35,167 nucleotides of DNA from Candidatus Sumerlaeota bacterium (GTDB lineage: Bacteria > Sumerlaeota > Sumerlaeia > SLMS01). The DNA lies in assembly GCA_007132505.1 (NCBI GenBank), contig SLOM01000132.1:1-35167 (forward strand), in the 5' to 3' direction. Below, piece after piece: positions 1 through 7,652 of the stretch (position 1 is its first letter; every line of letters begins with the position of its first letter). The position numbers and the translations under genes are program-made. The notes under the pieces are model-generated. The model was not told where the DNA came from and made no database searches. It was given only the letters and a program-made list of their open reading frames with translations.

Positions 1-2693
1 AAGGGGCAGCTGTCCGCCTCGTTGGGCACGCCGTCGCCGTCGAAGTCATTGAAGGAGAAGATTCCGCGCTCGCCGGTGTTTGTGATGATGTTGACGTTGG
101 GGATGACGCTCGACCCGACGGGGATCGGGAAGGCCACCCGTGGATCGTCCGCGTATATCTCGTTGGGGAAGTTGCGCGGGAAGCCGTTCTCCACCCGCCG
201 GAGCTTCATCTGCAGCTCGTTGGCGGGCTCGCTCACCATGGCGTAACCGAGGCCCATGGAGATTTCGTGATACACTTCCTCGCCCGGAGTGGGGAGCACT
301 TCCTGCGGTTCGTACCGGACGATGACGGTCGGGGTCATCGTGACTTCGGGATCGGGGAAGTACTCCTCCCCGAGGATCTGACCGGTCGGCTCGTAACGCC
401 AGATATCGAGGTCGGGAACCTCGAAGGGATCCACCGTGATGAGGCGGTCCGGAACGGACAGTTCATCGGGGACAAGGTTGGTCAGGATGCCGGCGCGGAT
501 CAGGGGCGCGTGGGTCACATCCTCCCAGTAAACCAGGGGTGGCACGGACGGTTCGCCCGGGCCGCCGTAGCCGCGGCTGCGGGTCACGCGCTGGCCCCGG
601 ATATACAGATAGGGGTTGTACATCGCATCGCTGAAGGCCGGGTGGTGCAGGTGCGCCAGACCGAACTTCTGCGGCTGATTGGTCAGGTTGCGGTAGAGGT
701 AGGAAATCTTGACGCCCCGGTCCTCCTTCATCGGGCCGAAGAGTCCGGGTACTACCGCGTCCTCAAATTCCTTGATCTCGAAAAGCTGCACCAGCTCACC
801 AATTGTAACGCCGAAATTGTCCTGGATTGTGTGGACCATTTCGATCTCGTACTGCTGGGCCAGATGGTTCTCCGTGATGCGGACGTAATCGGCGAACTGG
901 AAGTTGAAGCCGTTGCTGCGCTCGTCCAGGTAGATCGTGCGCTCCTGGCCGGGGATTCCGGCCGCGAGTACGATCTTGGCCACCGTGTGCTGGGTCTGTG
1001 CGAAGGAGCGCGGCACGGTGAGCGTCGGGCCCTGTGCGATGCCGATGCGGAAGCCACCGGTGGGCAGGAAGGTCAGCTCGATTTCCTCGCCGTCCACTTC
1101 CACCGTGACCGGCTCGGCGAGCGCCTCGCCCTCGAGCTCGATTTCGATAAACCGGCCGGTGACCAGGTTCGGTGCGGGCTGCGCTGTCGGGTCCACGAAG
1201 ATGTCCCCGCTGCCCGGCACGGGCGCCTCGTCCGAGACGCCGCCGAACCACTCGATGGGGAAGTCGTCCACCGCCTCCACACCGGTCAGCTCGACGGTCA
1301 GCGAATCCTCGGTGCCGACCGAGACACCTTCCTCGCGCGGAGCCGCCAGCACGTACCAGTTCCCCGGCGGCAGGCCCTTGATCTCGTAAGCGCCGCTGAG
1401 GTGCTGGCGGAAAAACTCGTAGTAGAGCGACGTATCGGCACCATCGTGGATGTACTTTAGGACCTGGTTGATGCCAGTGAGGGTGTGGGCTTCGAGCCGG
1501 ATGGGCCCCACGTTGCGCTCAAGGTTTCCAAAGCGGCCGATGTTCGCCACCGTGTCCAAGTCAATGCGCCCGCCGGGGGGAAGCGGCCGGCCGACGTAGA
1601 TCGGCTGGTCCCAGATGGCGCCGCTGGGCCCGAAGGAGCCGGTGTGGCCGAATTCGTTGACCACCGCCCCGTCGAAGAGATTCCCCGAGATCCCGCCGCC
1701 CTGGGCGCCGCCGTAGACAGACCAGAGGCTGATCTTGTCGTCGAGAGCCACCTCTCCGCGCAGGTCGTAGGGGTTCGTCTGGAATTCCGAGTTGGCGTCG
1801 CCCGCGACGATGTAGGAGCGGGAGAGCGTCGCATTGTAAAGGTGGGATTCCGCCAGGCCGAGGGCCCGGCCGATGGCCTTGTGGAAGACCGCCTCGATAT
1901 CAATTGTGCCGACAACATCCTGCATTTCGAGGCCGCGATTGGCCAGGTCGCTCGGATCGGAGGGATACTGGTTCCACTCCGCCAGGCCGGCCATGACGAT
2001 ATCCACGTCAATCAGCTCACCGCCCTCGTAGGTACGAGAGGGCAGGATGAGGCGCAGTTCCTCGCTGGTGACGCCCTCGCCGGCTTCGTCCTCGCCGCGG
2101 ATCGTGATGATGTCGAGGTCTTCCCCGTCGAAATCCACGGAGATGCGCTCGGCCACGTTCACGTTGTCGCGCGTGTCGAATTCGCGCTCCACATAGGTAT
2201 AGACAGGGTTGAACAACAGGCCGTCGCCCAGCGGGTTGTCCGGGTCGCGGAAGGTGACCACGTTGAACCCGTCAATCGCGGCGCGTGTGGGGCCGAAGTC
2301 AAGGTAGGGGATACCGAAGGACGCGGCGTCCTCCGAGAACATGGGCGACCGCAGGTTGATTTTCTCCGGGCCCACGTCATCCCAGGCATCCACCGCCCGG
2401 CCGAGCGCGCGGAAGATGGCGTCGTCCGTGATCGGGTCCACCGGGTCGTTCGTTCCCGGGTCGAGAACGGTGTCGCCGTAGGAGAACGGCGGGCGGAACA
2501 GGTAGAACCGCACGCCCGAGCCCTCCGGCCATCGCAGAGTCGTCCGGATGCGCAGGTCGTCCTCGGTCCGCTCCTGGTCCATGGAGTCTATGTAGTTGAC
2601 CATGTAACCATGGCCCGCCGGGGCCGGTACGGCCAGGAGGACAAGTGCCGCCAAAGCGGCTCCGATCAAGGTGGCTGAACGGGTTATCGCCAC
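1..2693 (-). CDS. Large secreted protein with degenerate matrixin-like domain and TSP3-type repeat (C-terminus cut by window edge)
   Basis: The frame is open from a GTG at 2693 to the window edge, giving about 897 residues and then a partial codon. A GAGGAG ribosome site lies 7 bases before the GTG. Residues 1-26 form a signal peptide (hydrophobic core, then APAG), so the product is exported. Residues 272-283 read KAIGRALGLAES inside a segment otherwise built like the matrixin/metzincin helix HExGHxLGLxHS: the glycines and leucines are kept, but the three His ligands and the catalytic Glu are K, A, R and E. I infer a matrixin-like fold without zinc protease activity. The last visible residues (about 883-897) are a DxDGDGxxxxxDxCP repeat, as in thrombospondin type 3 calcium-binding repeats. 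The gene lies 60 bp after the secreted protein at 2754-3668 and is probably in one operon with it. Function unknown; a structural or binding role is possible. Confidence 0.8.
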   Translation of the reverse strand, partial: MAITRSATLIGAALAALVLLAVPAPAGHGYMVNYIDSMDQERTEDDLRIRTTLRWPEGSGVRFYLFRPPFSYGDTVLDPGTNDPVDPITDDAIFRALGRAVDAWDDVGPEKINLRSPMFSEDAASFGIPYLDFGPTRAAIDGFNVVTFRDPDNPLGDGLLFNPVYTYVEREFDTRDNVNVAERISVDFDGEDLDIITIRGEDEAGEGVTSEELRLILPSRTYEGGELIDVDIVMAGLAEWNQYPSDPSDLANRGLEMQDVVGTIDIEAVFHKAIGRALGLAESHLYNATLSRSYIVAGDANSEFQTNPYDLRGEVALDDKISLWSVYGGAQGGGISGNLFDGAVVNEFGHTGSFGPSGAIWDQPIYVGRPLPPGGRIDLDTVANIGRFGNLERNVGPIRLEAHTLTGINQVLKYIHDGADTSLYYEFFRQHLSGAYEIKGLPPGNWYVLAAPREEGVSVGTEDSLTVELTGVEAVDDFPIEWFGGVSDEAPVPGSGDIFVDPTAQPAPNLVTGRFIEIELEGEALAEPVTVEVDGEEIELTFLPTGGFRIGIAQGPTLTVPRSFAQTQHTVAKIVLAAGIPGQERTIYLDERSNGFNFQFADYVRITENHLAQQYEIEMVHTIQDNFGVTIGELVQLFEIKEFEDAVVPGLFGPMKEDRGVKISYLYRNLTNQPQKFGLAHLHHPAFSDAMYNPYLYIRGQRVTRSRGYGGPGEPSVPPLVYWEDVTHAPLIRAGILTNLVPDELSVPDRLITVDPFEVPDLDIWRYEPTGQILGEEYFPDPEVTMTPTVIVRYEPQEVLPTPGEEVYHEISMGLGYAMVSEPANELQMKLRRVENGFPRNFPNEIYADDPRVAFPIPVGSSVIPNVNIITNTGERGIFSFNDFDGDGVPNEADSCP

Positions 2694-2753: not shown

Positions 2754-3668
2754 TTAGTCGTCTCCTTGGCTTTCCTGCCCGGCCACGCCGTGCCAGCGCC
2801 TTGCGATGTCGGCCTTCTCCTCTTCGCTCAGCTCGCCGGCCTGGTGCTGTTCCACCGAGCGGCGCAGAGCGTCGAGCATCTCGTCGTCGTAGTACGCCAT
2901 TTGGGGCAGGGGGTCGAAGCCGCGCAGAACTGCCGTGCTCTTGCGTTCCGGCACGGAGAAGACGCCATAGACCCCGGGGATCTGCTTCAGCCGCGCGTTG
3001 TCGTCCGCCAGTGACTTCTGTTCGGCCGCCAGCTCATGCAGGGCGGTGCTGACCTGGGAGTAGTTGAACGCCTCGGAGGGCAGCTCGGGGGAGCGGGCCG
3101 CTGCGGAGGAGGTCACCTTGGCCGCTTCGTCCACGCCGATGCCCGAGTTCTTGTCCCAGTCCGCCGTGGCGTAACCGGGGACGCGCTCGATCCGGAGCTT
3201 GCCCTGCCGGCCGCCGACCACCTGCGGGCTGGCAACGAGGGGCGACTCGGCGTTGAAGCGCTCCTTGTCCTTCTCGGAGAGACGCTCGTAGGGCCGGCTC
3301 AGGAAGAGGATCGCCTGCTCGCCCTTGCGGAACTGGGCGATGGTGGGGACGTGCTGCACGATACCGCCGTAGCGGCCGCCCTGATGCGTGAGCGTCTCCT
3401 GCCCCGACATGGCGCCCTTGAAGTTCTCGAGCACGTCGAACCGCACGTCGGTGACGATGCGGCCGTTCCAGACCCGGGAGCGTGTTTCGACCACCTCGAC
3501 CGTGATGATGTCGTCCGCGATGGCGGTCATCTCCTCGATGCTGAGGGGGACGGCCCCTGCTTGGGCCCGCGGGGCCACAAGGGCAAAGGCGGCGAGAAGC
3601 GCCGCCACCATGAGGCCGATTCCGGCACGCGGCCGGCTGCTAGTCCTGAAAAGCGGGATTGAAAACAC
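2754..3668 (-). CDS. Secreted protein of unknown function
   Basis: About 304 residues from a GTG at 3668, which overlaps the end of the upstream pilin gene by about 29 bases; GGAGG lies 11 bases before it. This start gives a good signal peptide: an Arg-containing n-region, a hydrophobic stretch MVAALLAAFALVAP, and an AQA cleavage site near residue 37. An ATG at 3611 is an alternative but would leave no positive n-region. The mature N-terminal half (VPLS, then a strand-rich segment with a GRI-TDV pattern, GGRYGG and GEQAILFL) resembles a secreted family often found beside matrixin-like proteins in PVC and Sumerlaeota-like genomes; this is from memory, not a search. The C-terminal half is charged and helical. 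The gene sits between a pseudopilin and a degenerate matrixin protein. No catalytic motif recognised. Confidence 0.75.
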   Translation of the reverse strand: MFSIPLFRTSSRPRAGIGLMVAALLAAFALVAPRAQAGAVPLSIEEMTAIADDIITVEVVETRSRVWNGRIVTDVRFDVLENFKGAMSGQETLTHQGGRYGGIVQHVPTIAQFRKGEQAILFLSRPYERLSEKDKERFNAESPLVASPQVVGGRQGKLRIERVPGYATADWDKNSGIGVDEAAKVTSSAAARSPELPSEAFNYSQVSTALHELAAEQKSLADDNARLKQIPGVYGVFSVPERKSTAVLRGFDPLPQMAYYDDEMLDALRRSVEQHQAGELSEEEKADIARRWHGVAGQESQGDD

Positions 3669-4329
3669 GGCTGCCGTTTCCTCCAGGGTTTTCGAATCGG
3701 TAGATGTTGCCGAGACTGAGTGTCCCGTTCGTCGGGTCATACTCCTGATCGAAGTGGACAAAATTGTCCCGCTCAGGAGGATAATTCCCGAGGTTGAAGC
3801 TTCCACGGCCAAACTGGCCATCGGGGCCAACGGACATGATGGCCCACCCGTAGCGGTTGTCGTCGCGGCCCGCACGGGTAGACCTCACACGCTGCACCAT
3901 TTCCGGGGGGTAGAAATCGAGCAGATTGTTGGGGTACGCAATCCGATTCTCGAAGACGTCCTCCGGAATGGCGGAAATATAGGAGATCGGGGTGGTGAAC
4001 CGGCTCAGGTCCAGAGCGCGGGTCGTCACGTCCCCCACGCCGACGTTGGACCCCCGGGGCCATTGGTCCCGCGGGGGGTGTGTGCCGTTGTCCAGCCGGT
4101 ACTGCTCCACGGCGGTGGCGAGCACGCGCTGGTCGGACTTCACCCGGGCGACCTTCGAGCGCGTTTGCGCCTCGAGGAAGTTCGGCACCGCGATTGATGC
4201 GAGAATGGAGATGATCGCTACCACCACCAGCAGTTCGATCAAAGTGAAGCCACCTTGTCCGAGGCTCCGACCAGCGGAGCGCCCCGGACGTCCGTGGCCA
4301 AGGGGAATTGCACTGCGTCCTGCCTTCAT
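3640..4329 (-). CDS. Type II secretion / type IV pilin-like protein (pseudopilin)
   Basis: 229 residues from the ATG at 4329, preceded by AGGA. A basic leader of about 29 residues ends in G-G before FTLIELLVVVAIISILAS, the classic prepilin peptidase site and class III signal with Glu at +5. After the hydrophobic helix comes the pattern NFLEAQTRSKVARVKSD, common in GspG-like pseudopilins of PVC and neighbouring phyla, then a globular domain containing SVGPDGQFG. Expected role: inserted in the inner membrane, cleaved and methylated by prepilin peptidase, then assembled into a pilus or pseudopilus. No secretion ATPase, secretin or peptidase gene lies in the window. A longer frame reaches 4395 but lacks a better start. 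It is the first gene of the leftward operon with the two secreted proteins. Confidence 0.88.
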   Translation of the reverse strand: MKAGRSAIPLGHGRPGRSAGRSLGQGGFTLIELLVVVAIISILASIAVPNFLEAQTRSKVARVKSDQRVLATAVEQYRLDNGTHPPRDQWPRGSNVGVGDVTTRALDLSRFTTPISYISAIPEDVFENRIAYPNNLLDFYPPEMVQRVRSTRAGRDDNRYGWAIMSVGPDGQFGRGSFNLGNYPPERDNFVHFDQEYDPTNGTLSLGNIYRFENPGGNGSRVFNPAFQD

Positions 4330-4824
4330 GAGGAGTCCTGCTTTCAATTGTGTGGGGGGTACGATAGGGGGGCGAGCCCTGGGACCATGCCACAACTCCG
4401 GGTATCCTCCACTGCTCCTCCGGCGCGGTCCTGGGGGGCAGCAGGCGCGAGGGGCGCCGCCGCGGTCCGGGCTCTCTGATGGCCTGATGCCGGCCAGTTC
4501 CGGATACCTTGGAGGGCCTCCGGTTTACGTCAAGGCCAGACTGTCCCGCAGGCACGTGGCGGGTGTATCCCCCGGGCTTCGTGGGGTGACGTCCGTGACC
4601 CACTTGGCAGCGGTCCACCGAACCCTGCGAGACCTGCCCGATCTCACAGGGCCGGGTAGAGGCGAAACAACGCACCAAAACAGCGAAAACACCTGCGGAT
4701 GCAGACCCAATCGCAGGAGATTTCCGTTCTGCTGTTCGGCCGGATGGCGTGCTCCAGCCGGAAGAAATCATCCGCCGATTGCGCCGATTCACGCCGATAA
4801 GGGGCGGTTGCGTTTCATCCCAGG

Positions 4825-5300: not shown

Positions 5301-7652
5301 ATGCGCCTGACACCGCTGTCCCGCGAAGTCCGGAAGTTCCACCGCGTGCCGCCCGAGGAAAAACCCCGGCGCGACATCGCCCGCTGGCTGGTCCTTTTCG
5401 CTGTCTTCGCGATTACCCTCCTTCTCACGAGCCCCTTCTACTTCACCCGTCCACCTGTGGCCGAGGCCGGGGAGCGCCTGCCCGAGGCGCCGGTGCGCGC
5501 CGCAATCACCTTCGACCACGTCCTCCTGAGCACCTTGGAGGAGTGGGAGGAGGAGCGCGAGCAGCGGCACCCGCGGGTTTACGTCTATGACCCGGCGGTC
5601 CGCGACGAGGTGCTGCGCCAGTTCGAGGGGCTTCTGACGACCGTGGACGCGCTGGAGACCGAGGAGGCGGACGCTGCCGACGTGGCCGCCTCGCTCCGCC
5701 GGCGCGACGCCCGCTTCGCCTTCCTCAGTGGCACCGAGGCCCTCAACTTCGTGCGCGCCATGAAGGACCCACGCCTCCAGCAGGCACTCCGGCTGGTCAT
5801 CCGGGAGGCCTACGAGGACCGCGCCGTGGCTGAGCGGCTGATCTTCCTCCGCGCCCACCAGCAGGACGGCGTGGCCCGGATCGTCTCCCCCCGCGAGCCC
5901 GTCGTCAGTCCCCGCGACCTGGCCGAACGGGCCCTCCCCTTCCCGGTGGACTGGTACGAGTGGAATCCCCTCCTGATTGCCCGTCTGGCCGAACAGTTCG
6001 GCACGTCAACTCCTCCCGTCCAGGCGGAGCAGGCAGGCCGCACCCTGCTCACCACCATCATCCAGCCCAACATCGTCTTCGACGAGGGACTGACACGCGA
6101 GGCCTACGAGAACTATCCGCGCGGCGACCTCTCCACCACGTTCGAGCAGGGTGAGGTGCTCGTCAGCGAGCAGGCCGCCGAGAGGGAGCTGACCGAAGAG
6201 GAGGCGGACCTGATCGCCGCCCACCGCGCGACCGTCAACCGCCAGCACAACGTGCGTCTGGCAGGCCACGGGCTTTTCGTCCTGATCGTCTTCCTCATCC
6301 TTTCCTTCTACGTTCTCAAGTTCAGCCGTGACTTCCAGTTCACCACCTACAACGTGGTGCTGATTTCCCTGCCGGTTGTGCTGGCGCTGACGCTGCAGGG
6401 CTTCATCCTGCTGCTGGCAGAGGGGATCACCGACAAGGTGGGCTACCTTTTCCCCGCCGGTGCGATCGGGATGCTGGGGGTACTGCTGCTGGACGTCCGG
6501 ATGGCCCTGCTCCTGGTGACGTGGGGGTGCCTGCTCTTCGGGCTGCAGGTGGACCTGGACTACCAGTACGTCATCGTGGGCCTTTTTGGCGGATATACCG
6601 CAGTGGCGGCGATCTACAGCATCCGCCGGCGCTGGGAGGTCTTCCGCGCGAGCATCTTCATTGGCCTCGTGCAGGGTGCGGTCATCCTGGTCACCGCCTA
6701 CATCCAAAACCCGGTGCACATCCCGCTGGACTTGGCGGCGATCGGCCTGGTGGGGGGCATCGCCAGCTTCCTCGTCCTGGCCATCCTTCCGGTGTTCGAG
6801 CGGTTCGGTATCGTGACGGACATGCAGCTCCTCGAACTGACGGGCCTCCATCAGCCGCTGCTCCGCCAACTCGAGGAGGCGGCGCCTGGCACCTGGCAGC
6901 ACACGCTCAACGTGACCAAGCTGGCCGAGGCCGCCGCCACCGCCATCGGCGTGAACTACCTCCTGGTGCGTGGCGGATGCTACTACCACGACATCGGGAA
7001 GACCCGCAAACCGGAGTACTTCACCGAAAACCAGATCACCGCCGAAGACAAGATGCGCCACGCCGAGCTGAAACCCCAGATGTCCACCCTCATCATCAGG
7101 AACCACGTGAAGGAAGGCGTGGAGATGGCACGCCGGGCAGGGGTCCCGGAGCGCATCATTGACTTCATCCGCCAACACCACGGCACGAGCGTCATCAGCT
7201 ATTTCTATCACAAGGCCCTCGAATCGCAGGCTCGCGGCGAGAGCAAGGAGCCCGTCCGCATCGAGGACTACCGCTACCCGGGCCCGAAGCCCCAGACCAT
7301 CGAAGCGGCCATCGTCATGCTCGCTGACAGCGTGGAAGCCATCGCCACCGCCAAGCTCTCCTCCCGCACGGTGCGCGAGGACGATATCCAGCAGATCGTC
7401 CGCACCACCATTTTTGAAAAATTCAACGACGGACAATTCGACGAGTCCAACCTGACCCTGCGCGACCTGAACACCATCCGGGAGGTCTTCGTGAAGGTTC
7501 TGAAGTCGCGCTTCCACACCCGGATTGACTACCCGAAGCGGCCCTCGCTGAGCCGCGTGCAGCGCGAACGCCGTGATGCCGAGAAACCCCACAGCGGGTC
7601 CGGCGAGACCAACAGGACCGAGGTGGAGCGGCAGGCGGCGGCATCCGGATGA
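5301..7652 (+). CDS. 7TM-HD family phosphohydrolase (PgpH-like, predicted cyclic di-AMP phosphodiesterase)
   Basis: 783 residues. Order: short basic N-terminus; one membrane segment (about 28-46); an extracytoplasmic domain to about residue 320 (7TMR-HDED-like); several consecutive membrane helices (about 321-500); then a cytoplasmic HD domain. Metal-binding pattern visible: H534, H563-D564 in YYHDIGK, H602, H626-H627 and a later Asp near 676. This is the arrangement of Listeria PgpH and Bacillus YqfF, which hydrolyse cyclic di-AMP; that substrate is inferred from the family. In many genomes the gene sits beside phoH and ybeY, which are absent here. Its TGA overlaps the ATG of the next gene (ATGA), so the two are likely translationally coupled. 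The C-terminal tail of about 35 residues is charged and low in complexity. Confidence 0.92.
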   Translation: MRLTPLSREVRKFHRVPPEEKPRRDIARWLVLFAVFAITLLLTSPFYFTRPPVAEAGERLPEAPVRAAITFDHVLLSTLEEWEEEREQRHPRVYVYDPAVRDEVLRQFEGLLTTVDALETEEADAADVAASLRRRDARFAFLSGTEALNFVRAMKDPRLQQALRLVIREAYEDRAVAERLIFLRAHQQDGVARIVSPREPVVSPRDLAERALPFPVDWYEWNPLLIARLAEQFGTSTPPVQAEQAGRTLLTTIIQPNIVFDEGLTREAYENYPRGDLSTTFEQGEVLVSEQAAERELTEEEADLIAAHRATVNRQHNVRLAGHGLFVLIVFLILSFYVLKFSRDFQFTTYNVVLISLPVVLALTLQGFILLLAEGITDKVGYLFPAGAIGMLGVLLLDVRMALLLVTWGCLLFGLQVDLDYQYVIVGLFGGYTAVAAIYSIRRRWEVFRASIFIGLVQGAVILVTAYIQNPVHIPLDLAAIGLVGGIASFLVLAILPVFERFGIVTDMQLLELTGLHQPLLRQLEEAAPGTWQHTLNVTKLAEAAATAIGVNYLLVRGGCYYHDIGKTRKPEYFTENQITAEDKMRHAELKPQMSTLIIRNHVKEGVEMARRAGVPERIIDFIRQHHGTSVISYFYHKALESQARGESKEPVRIEDYRYPGPKPQTIEAAIVMLADSVEAIATAKLSSRTVREDDIQQIVRTTIFEKFNDGQFDESNLTLRDLNTIREVFVKVLKSRFHTRIDYPKRPSLSRVQRERRDAEKPHSGSGETNRTEVERQAAASG

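Follow-up and report, generated by a model that had tools for sequence, protein, structure and literature searches.

A putative matrixin-type pseudoprotease in Sumerlaeota: recurrent loss of the zinc site in a domain kept beside a conserved neighbour gene

Background

The window analysed here, a stretch of 35,167 nucleotides from a Candidatus Sumerlaeota bacterium, carries on its minus strand the beginning of a giant gene. In its product the original prediction, made from the sequence alone, recognized a matrixin-like helix with all three zinc-binding His and the catalytic Glu replaced, and proposed that a dead protease fold has been kept for some new purpose, binding or structural. The locus raises the question whether a genuine protease domain has lost its zinc site, whether the loss is confined to this genome or extends over a clade and, if so, what such a domain is kept for.

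Results

Organization of the gene and its product

The window is the whole contig (positions 1-35167); the gene extends past its end, which leaves about 917 residues of the frame for comparison (Table 1). Going by its relatives, the protein would have some 1,500 or more further residues; in these relatives uncut frames measure 2,504-2,610 aa within the window's order and apparently uncut frames about 2,000-2,600 aa overall. An RBS-like GAGGAG is located just upstream of the GTG at 2693. The sole Pfam match of the window protein is the sub-threshold TSP3 fragment listed in Table 1; PF02412 matches the relative from the same genus with an E of 1.9e-46, TSP3 and FG-GAP repeats have been found in all three relatives scanned and PF09099 near the end of two of the three, a C-terminal part which we take to be IPT/TIG-like. 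The parts of the relatives of about 2,500 residues apparently follow the order: signal-peptide-like start, pseudoprotease, beta domain (presumably carboxypeptidase-regulatory-like), TSP3 repeats, FG-GAP repeats and IPT/TIG-like end. Judged by eye from its signal-peptide-like start, the giant protein is apparently exported.

Table 1 Features of the window discussed in the text (all on the minus strand)
Feature	Position	Strand	Remarks
Giant protein, N-terminal ~897 residues of probably ~2,500 aa	3..2693	-	Start at GTG 2693, or else GTG 2750; not closed within the contig
TSP3 repeats, first part (contig-cut)	3..50	-	PF02412, E 0.0025, below its cut-off, residues 901-916
Beta domain after the pseudoprotease	1338..1703	-	By eye; no Pfam match
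Metzincin-derived pseudoprotease domain	1704..2567	-	Profile-profile homology to motif-bearing orthologues
Leu290, Met-turn position	1824..1826	-	Met in 22/31 members, Leu in 9/31 (alignment)
His284	1842..1844	-	In 10/11 dead members of the order, 1/9 intact members
Former zinc-binding helix KAIGRALGLAES	1845..1880	-	First His to Lys272, Glu to Ala273, second His to Arg276, third His to Glu282
nb1, conserved gene directly upstream	2754..3611	-	Signal-peptide-like start (by eye); upstream in 30/31 genomes
T2SS-G-like prepilin upstream of nb1	3640..4395	-	PF07963 1.2e-7, PF08334 3e-4; found upstream in 26/31 genomes

Thirteen of 22 frame ends in the family finish in W-x-[LM]-[YFL] near the last residue (DWSLYQ, SWKLYE, GWTLYN), after the IPT/TIG-like stretch (L031, L033, L035, L038-L041, L043-L045, L047, L048 and L051), and the other nine may include contig edges; this ending is possibly a sorting or secretion tag. 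Elsewhere in the window, on the plus strand (5301-7652), a membrane protein of 783 aa with an HD-like domain at its end is encoded, which we assume to resemble the 7TM-HD (PgpH-like) family.

The former zinc site

The minus-strand translation of 1846-1883, where the helix had originally been placed, reads HKAIGRALGLAE, and the 12 residues KAIGRALGLAES correspond to 1880-1845; the motif is present as predicted, with its ends displaced by three bases and one base. The numbering of its Lys as residue 272 is correct with the GTG start at 2693 and becomes 291 if counted from the GTG at 2750. In the alignment of 31 domains KAIGRALGLAES occupies exactly the HExxHxxGxxH position of the orthologues, with K272, A273, R276 and E282 in register with H, E, H and H of the intact ones. 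The zinc site of peptidase M10 and the metzincins is replaced in the window by K/A/R/E, and the loss of the catalytic residues is thereby shown.

A true HExxH elsewhere in the protein had been named beforehand as evidence against the prediction. The window frame contains none, nor do the 18 further frames that have lost the motif, of which several are cut by contig ends, so within the sequence seen the motif has not moved. The register of the Met-turn is also kept: the window has Leu at this position, Leu is found in five of the six members of the window's family (f1), and Met in all five members of the sister family f2.

Descent from a metzincin

The resemblance might be due to chance, as the window protein by itself matches no metzincin family and its domain has no match in Pfam (PF00413 included) or NCBIfam. 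Comparisons of dead members, i.e. those that have lost the motif, with known metzincins are weak: PF00413 finds one of the 11 members of the window's order (E 0.0077), the dead-only profile reaches a best E of 0.95 in the PDB and a P of 0.006 (probability 6) by hhalign against nine other matrixins, and, of the 19 lost members, a matrixin HMM places five ahead of the top-scoring one among 93 shuffled sequences and 14 level with it or below. The case for homology therefore rests on the orthologues bearing HELGH or HEMGH as a bridge, namely five members with the full motif and G015, with Asn as the third ligand. When these six were compared by hhalign with the 11 dead members of the window's order, a probability of 100 and an E of 3e-56 were obtained over 272 columns with the motif in register, and an HMM of the same six detected the window domain at E 2e-44 and none of 93 shuffled domains at E<=10. 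The six align in turn, over 71 columns and with an E of 7e-8, with nine further matrixins from Sumerlaeota; the 22-member profile matches karilysin and MMP-16 in the PDB (E 1.8e-4, chiefly in the helix and Met-turn), and nine of these 22 are matched by PF00413 at E<=1, with 9.7e-7 as the best value.

Since the E of 3e-56 is accompanied by a motif in register, the metzincin origin is secure, and the region 1704-2567 is shown by profile homology, which includes the window domain itself, to descend from an HExxHxxGxxH domain. The prediction of a metzincin-derived domain devoid of zinc ligands and catalytic Glu in a TSP3-repeat protein is borne out by these orthologues. Chance resemblance would demand that orthologues of the HELGHxxGLxHS type, which align along the whole domain, had been misread, and is barely credible. 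AlphaFold models were unusable for the window alone (410 aa, pLDDT 34.4) and for the 288-aa domain with one relative (L029, pLDDT 28.6).

Distribution and repeated loss of the motif

Searching with the window protein gave matches in 23 of 61 genomes. With the 22-member domain profile the family was found in 31 of 40 Sumerlaeota genomes, the window's own included, as one gene per genome at E<=0.001 (the two matches in G038 lie within one frame, and those at two contig edges in G026 were counted as one gene). The alignment of the 31 domains revealed 10 intact, two partial and 19 lost motifs. The partial members have Asn for the third His (G015) or for the Glu (G038). The lost ones comprise all members found in f1 (six), f2 (five), f3 (three) and f13 (three) together with G029 (f6) and G039, the last of which retains the Glu and none of the His. 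Within the window's order 11 members were found, and every one is without the three His and the Glu. The alignment of homologues that had been proposed for distinguishing clade-wide from local loss thus gives a loss that is order-wide and recurrent across the phylum. A separate M10 gene with HEHGHNLGLDH (L096, G000:C161) is also present in the window's genome, which is thus not without an intact matrixin motif.

A tree of 30 rows and 777 columns, from which the motif columns were left out, includes nine intact members, G026 being the tenth. It needs five changes between 'lost' and 'two or more His', four of them forced by well-supported branches, and a single clade of the 19 lost rows is rejected (AU p 1e-9). 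The positions of G039 and G020, which have long branches, and of G004, which fills only 42% of the columns, are less sure. We read the state changes as losses because regaining four catalytic residues is unlikely; on this reading of the tree it is well supported that the zinc site was lost several separate times in the same gene.

Constraint on the dead domain

Substitution rates were estimated by NG86 between the window and its relative from the same genus, up to residue 917. The pseudoprotease domain gave a dN of 0.108 (dS 1.127) and the helix with the Met-turn a dN of 0.022 (dS 1.864); the corresponding values were 0.267 (1.178) for the 210 residues after the domain, 0.213 (0.926) for frame residues 561-917 and 0.281 (0.789) for residues 20-62. 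The dN/dS ratios (near 0.1 for the domain, near 0.01 for the helix with the Met-turn) are rough, since dS is near saturation (above 1). Among the 11 dead members of the order pairwise identity is 51% in the helix, 52% in the Met-turn strip, 37% in the rest of the domain and 34% in the sequence after it; the helix window ranks 11th of 269 for conservation, and the top three windows overlap the helix. The domain is the most constrained part of the ~917 residues, above all in its former active-site helix, and strong purifying selection on the dead domain is shown. The catalytic residues are gone and the domain is retained under selection, as in a pseudoprotease.

Several separate losses, and replacements such as N, Q, Y and L in f3 and G029, each one base from His, might be taken for signs of a relic decaying after the need for a protease had been lost. 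The low dN/dS ratios, rough as they are with dS above 1, and the long open frames throughout an order argue against such decay, to which we give a very slight chance.

Five columns are fixed in the window's order and not in the intact members, two of them flanking the former site and three elsewhere. The two beside the site are His284 (Table 1) and Tyr294; each of them is shared by 10 of the order's 11 dead members and by one of nine intact members.

Residues at the former ligand positions

In the lost set of 19, Arg (nine members) and Lys (six) take the place of the first His, Ala (13; Ala or Gly in 15) that of the catalytic Glu, and Glu (eight) and Arg (six) that of the second His; an Arg codon lies one base from a His codon. 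Basic and acidic residues occur together at the ligand triplet in four of the six dead groups (f1, f2, f13 and G039); the pattern is absent from f3 and G029. Taken one by one, six representatives carry both charges in 4-9% of their equally spaced triplets, and among 281 aligned triplets of this spacing one other scores above the ligand triplet and none equals it, in a test that is post hoc and in which f1 and f2 share one loss. Opposite charges at this triplet suggest that a salt bridge, K/R/E or R/E, stands in for zinc in several lineages, where it would hold the helix instead of the metal.

The same new charged residues, fixed by family, and His284 could instead belong to a site rebuilt for another chemistry or another metal. 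The prevalence of His284 in the dead order agrees with this, but it is just one new conserved His, and the Lys or Arg at the first ligand position and the Ala or Gly at the general base, each in 15 of the 19 lost members, speak against rebuilding, which we regard as highly unlikely.

The neighbour gene nb1

The gene directly upstream, nb1, has no convincing Pfam or NCBIfam family and adjoins dead and intact versions of the metzincin alike. It is present in 33 of 40 genomes; when the two pieces of G026 are taken as separate rows, the upstream counts are 30/32 for nb1 and 26/32 for the prepilin. G027 has the metzincin and no nb1 in the whole assembly, with 501 bases upstream of the gene available. 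Thirteen further nb1-like places were detected, nine of them beside or within another metzincin gene (six directly upstream, one downstream and two in one frame), two ending at a contig edge and two without a metzincin in the stretch examined. The nine are not all independent, as G014 contributes two similar loci and G020 and G026 belong to one genus, and the metzincin genes of G004 and G026 had also entered the matrixin profile. The fusions and the gene neighbourhood point to a functional connection between nb1 and metzincins, and from both we infer that nb1 may bind the metzincin domain directly.

In the single-frame fusions, L161 (G004:C61, 586 aa) and L160 (G018:C684, 1,214 aa), the nb1-like part comes first, in a prodomain-like position. 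The metzincin-like genes behind nb1 in G014 (L158 and L159) have HETGHSLVLLDLY, apparently with Asp replacing the third His. The aligned part of nb1 measures 213-230 aa in the dead order (11 rows; window 2754-3875 and relatives), longer than in most of the other 19 rows (153-214 aa). A TIMP/NTR-like inhibitor, considered for nb1 on the ground of a resemblance, was not adopted, as the nb1 profile found no TIMP match in the PDB or Pfam.

The conserved neighbourhood could also be accounted for if the pseudoprotease domain were a module for folding, secretion or spacing that lacks a specific ligand, and if nb1 assisted the giant protein as its chaperone or in its export. The domain is the first after the signal-peptide-like start, and nb1 and, mostly, the T2SS-G-like prepilin are kept beside intact and dead versions alike, as such a module would allow; a spacer, however, needs neither a former active-site helix that is among the most constrained parts nor the order-specific His284 and Tyr294 adjoining the former site. 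We consider this account unlikely.

Discussion

With moderate confidence we favour the view that the region 1704-2567 is a zinc-free matrixin-type pseudoprotease whose role is binding, with nb1 as the probable ligand, and that several lineages have put salt bridges in place of the zinc. The dead domain would neither bind a catalytic zinc nor cut; its task would be to bind a protein or to assist assembly, nb1 being the likeliest partner, and nb1 in turn would serve the metzincins of Sumerlaeota in the manner of a prodomain, inhibitor or chaperone encoded by a gene of its own. Retention for a new binding or structural role, as originally proposed, fits the selection and the neighbour-gene evidence, and the role itself is what we infer from them. 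A bolder version can be put forward only tentatively: the zinc site would have been lost about five times and replaced several times by a salt bridge at the ligand positions, with the domain tied to nb1 throughout; the matrixin-nb1 pair would then have served for binding from the beginning, and cleavage would have been dispensable.

Pseudoproteases are often studied as inactive paralogues alongside active ones. Here the Sumerlaeota orthologues, one per genome, make up a graded series in which the site is intact, partial (HELGH...N, HNLGH...H) or entirely gone; several losses look independent of one another, and the gene neighbourhood is conserved. Such a series lets one ask what a metalloprotease does after cutting stops, and nb1 adds a family with no Pfam or NCBIfam name here that is tied to metzincins in Sumerlaeota. 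The series also bears on why Arg and Lys so often replace the zinc His, left open in the part of PMC3650047 available to us.

The window domain shares with the M10/matrixin family (PF00413; karilysin, MMP-16) the helix spacing, the GxxxGL pattern, the Met-turn region and a Trp-bearing first helix in register, and differs from it in having no zinc ligands, no catalytic Glu, long insertions and a giant TSP3/FG-GAP protein around it. The NCBIfam entry NF041938 (RSIGE_not_HEIGH, a MYXO-CTERM-anchored inactivated metalloprotease) has by its name His to Arg and His to Glu at the same two ligand positions as f2 and two of three f13 members. It was found in none of the 40 genomes at E<=0.001, nor in any control genome; at E<=1 it picks up two members of the 22-member set, with 0.019 as the lowest E, and G004 alone (E 0.16) among the 10 dead ones that were scanned one at a time, with 11.2 bits against a cut-off of 375. 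The entry NF041905 (MXAN_2677/MXAN_2678 metalloprotease) reaches E<=1 in 15 of the 22 members, with 6.5e-10 as its best value, and covers the motif region in six of the 10 singly scanned dead members (of 19): G010 (1.2e-4), G007 (5.7e-4), G012 (1.5e-3), G008 (1.9e-3), G004 (0.0096) and G039 (0.044). The dead members reach 12.8 to 21.2 bits, far below its cut-off of 250, and the window domain has no match. No paper mentioning MXAN_2677 was found, and among the matches listed for pseudoprotease metzincins, inactive bacterial matrixins, bacterial metallopeptidase pseudoenzymes that have lost zinc, Sumerlaeota and myxosortase, titles and the starts of abstracts contained no report of the Sumerlaeota family.

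Among better known systems, the ADAM pseudoproteases (ADAM11, ADAM22, ADAM23 and others) are described in the accessible part of PMC11266112 as inactive metzincin domains retained for protein-protein contacts; they are eukaryotic, belong to M12 and have another architecture. CLCA and other zincins with a substituted HExxH, of another zincin family, share with the lost members the bias from His to Arg or Lys, which occurs above expectation and whose role is stated as not clear in the portion of PMC3650047 at hand. In the mtz-tim pair of Listeria, as far as the excerpt of PMC8235301 goes, a metzincin gene is co-encoded with an exported TIMP-like partner; that metzincin is active, and the likeness to the nb1 pair is one of gene arrangement. 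Inactivated metalloproteases are thus already known from the ADAMs, CLCA and, in bacteria, NF041938, and what goes beyond the earlier sequence-only reading of this locus is that the loss is recurrent and order-wide.
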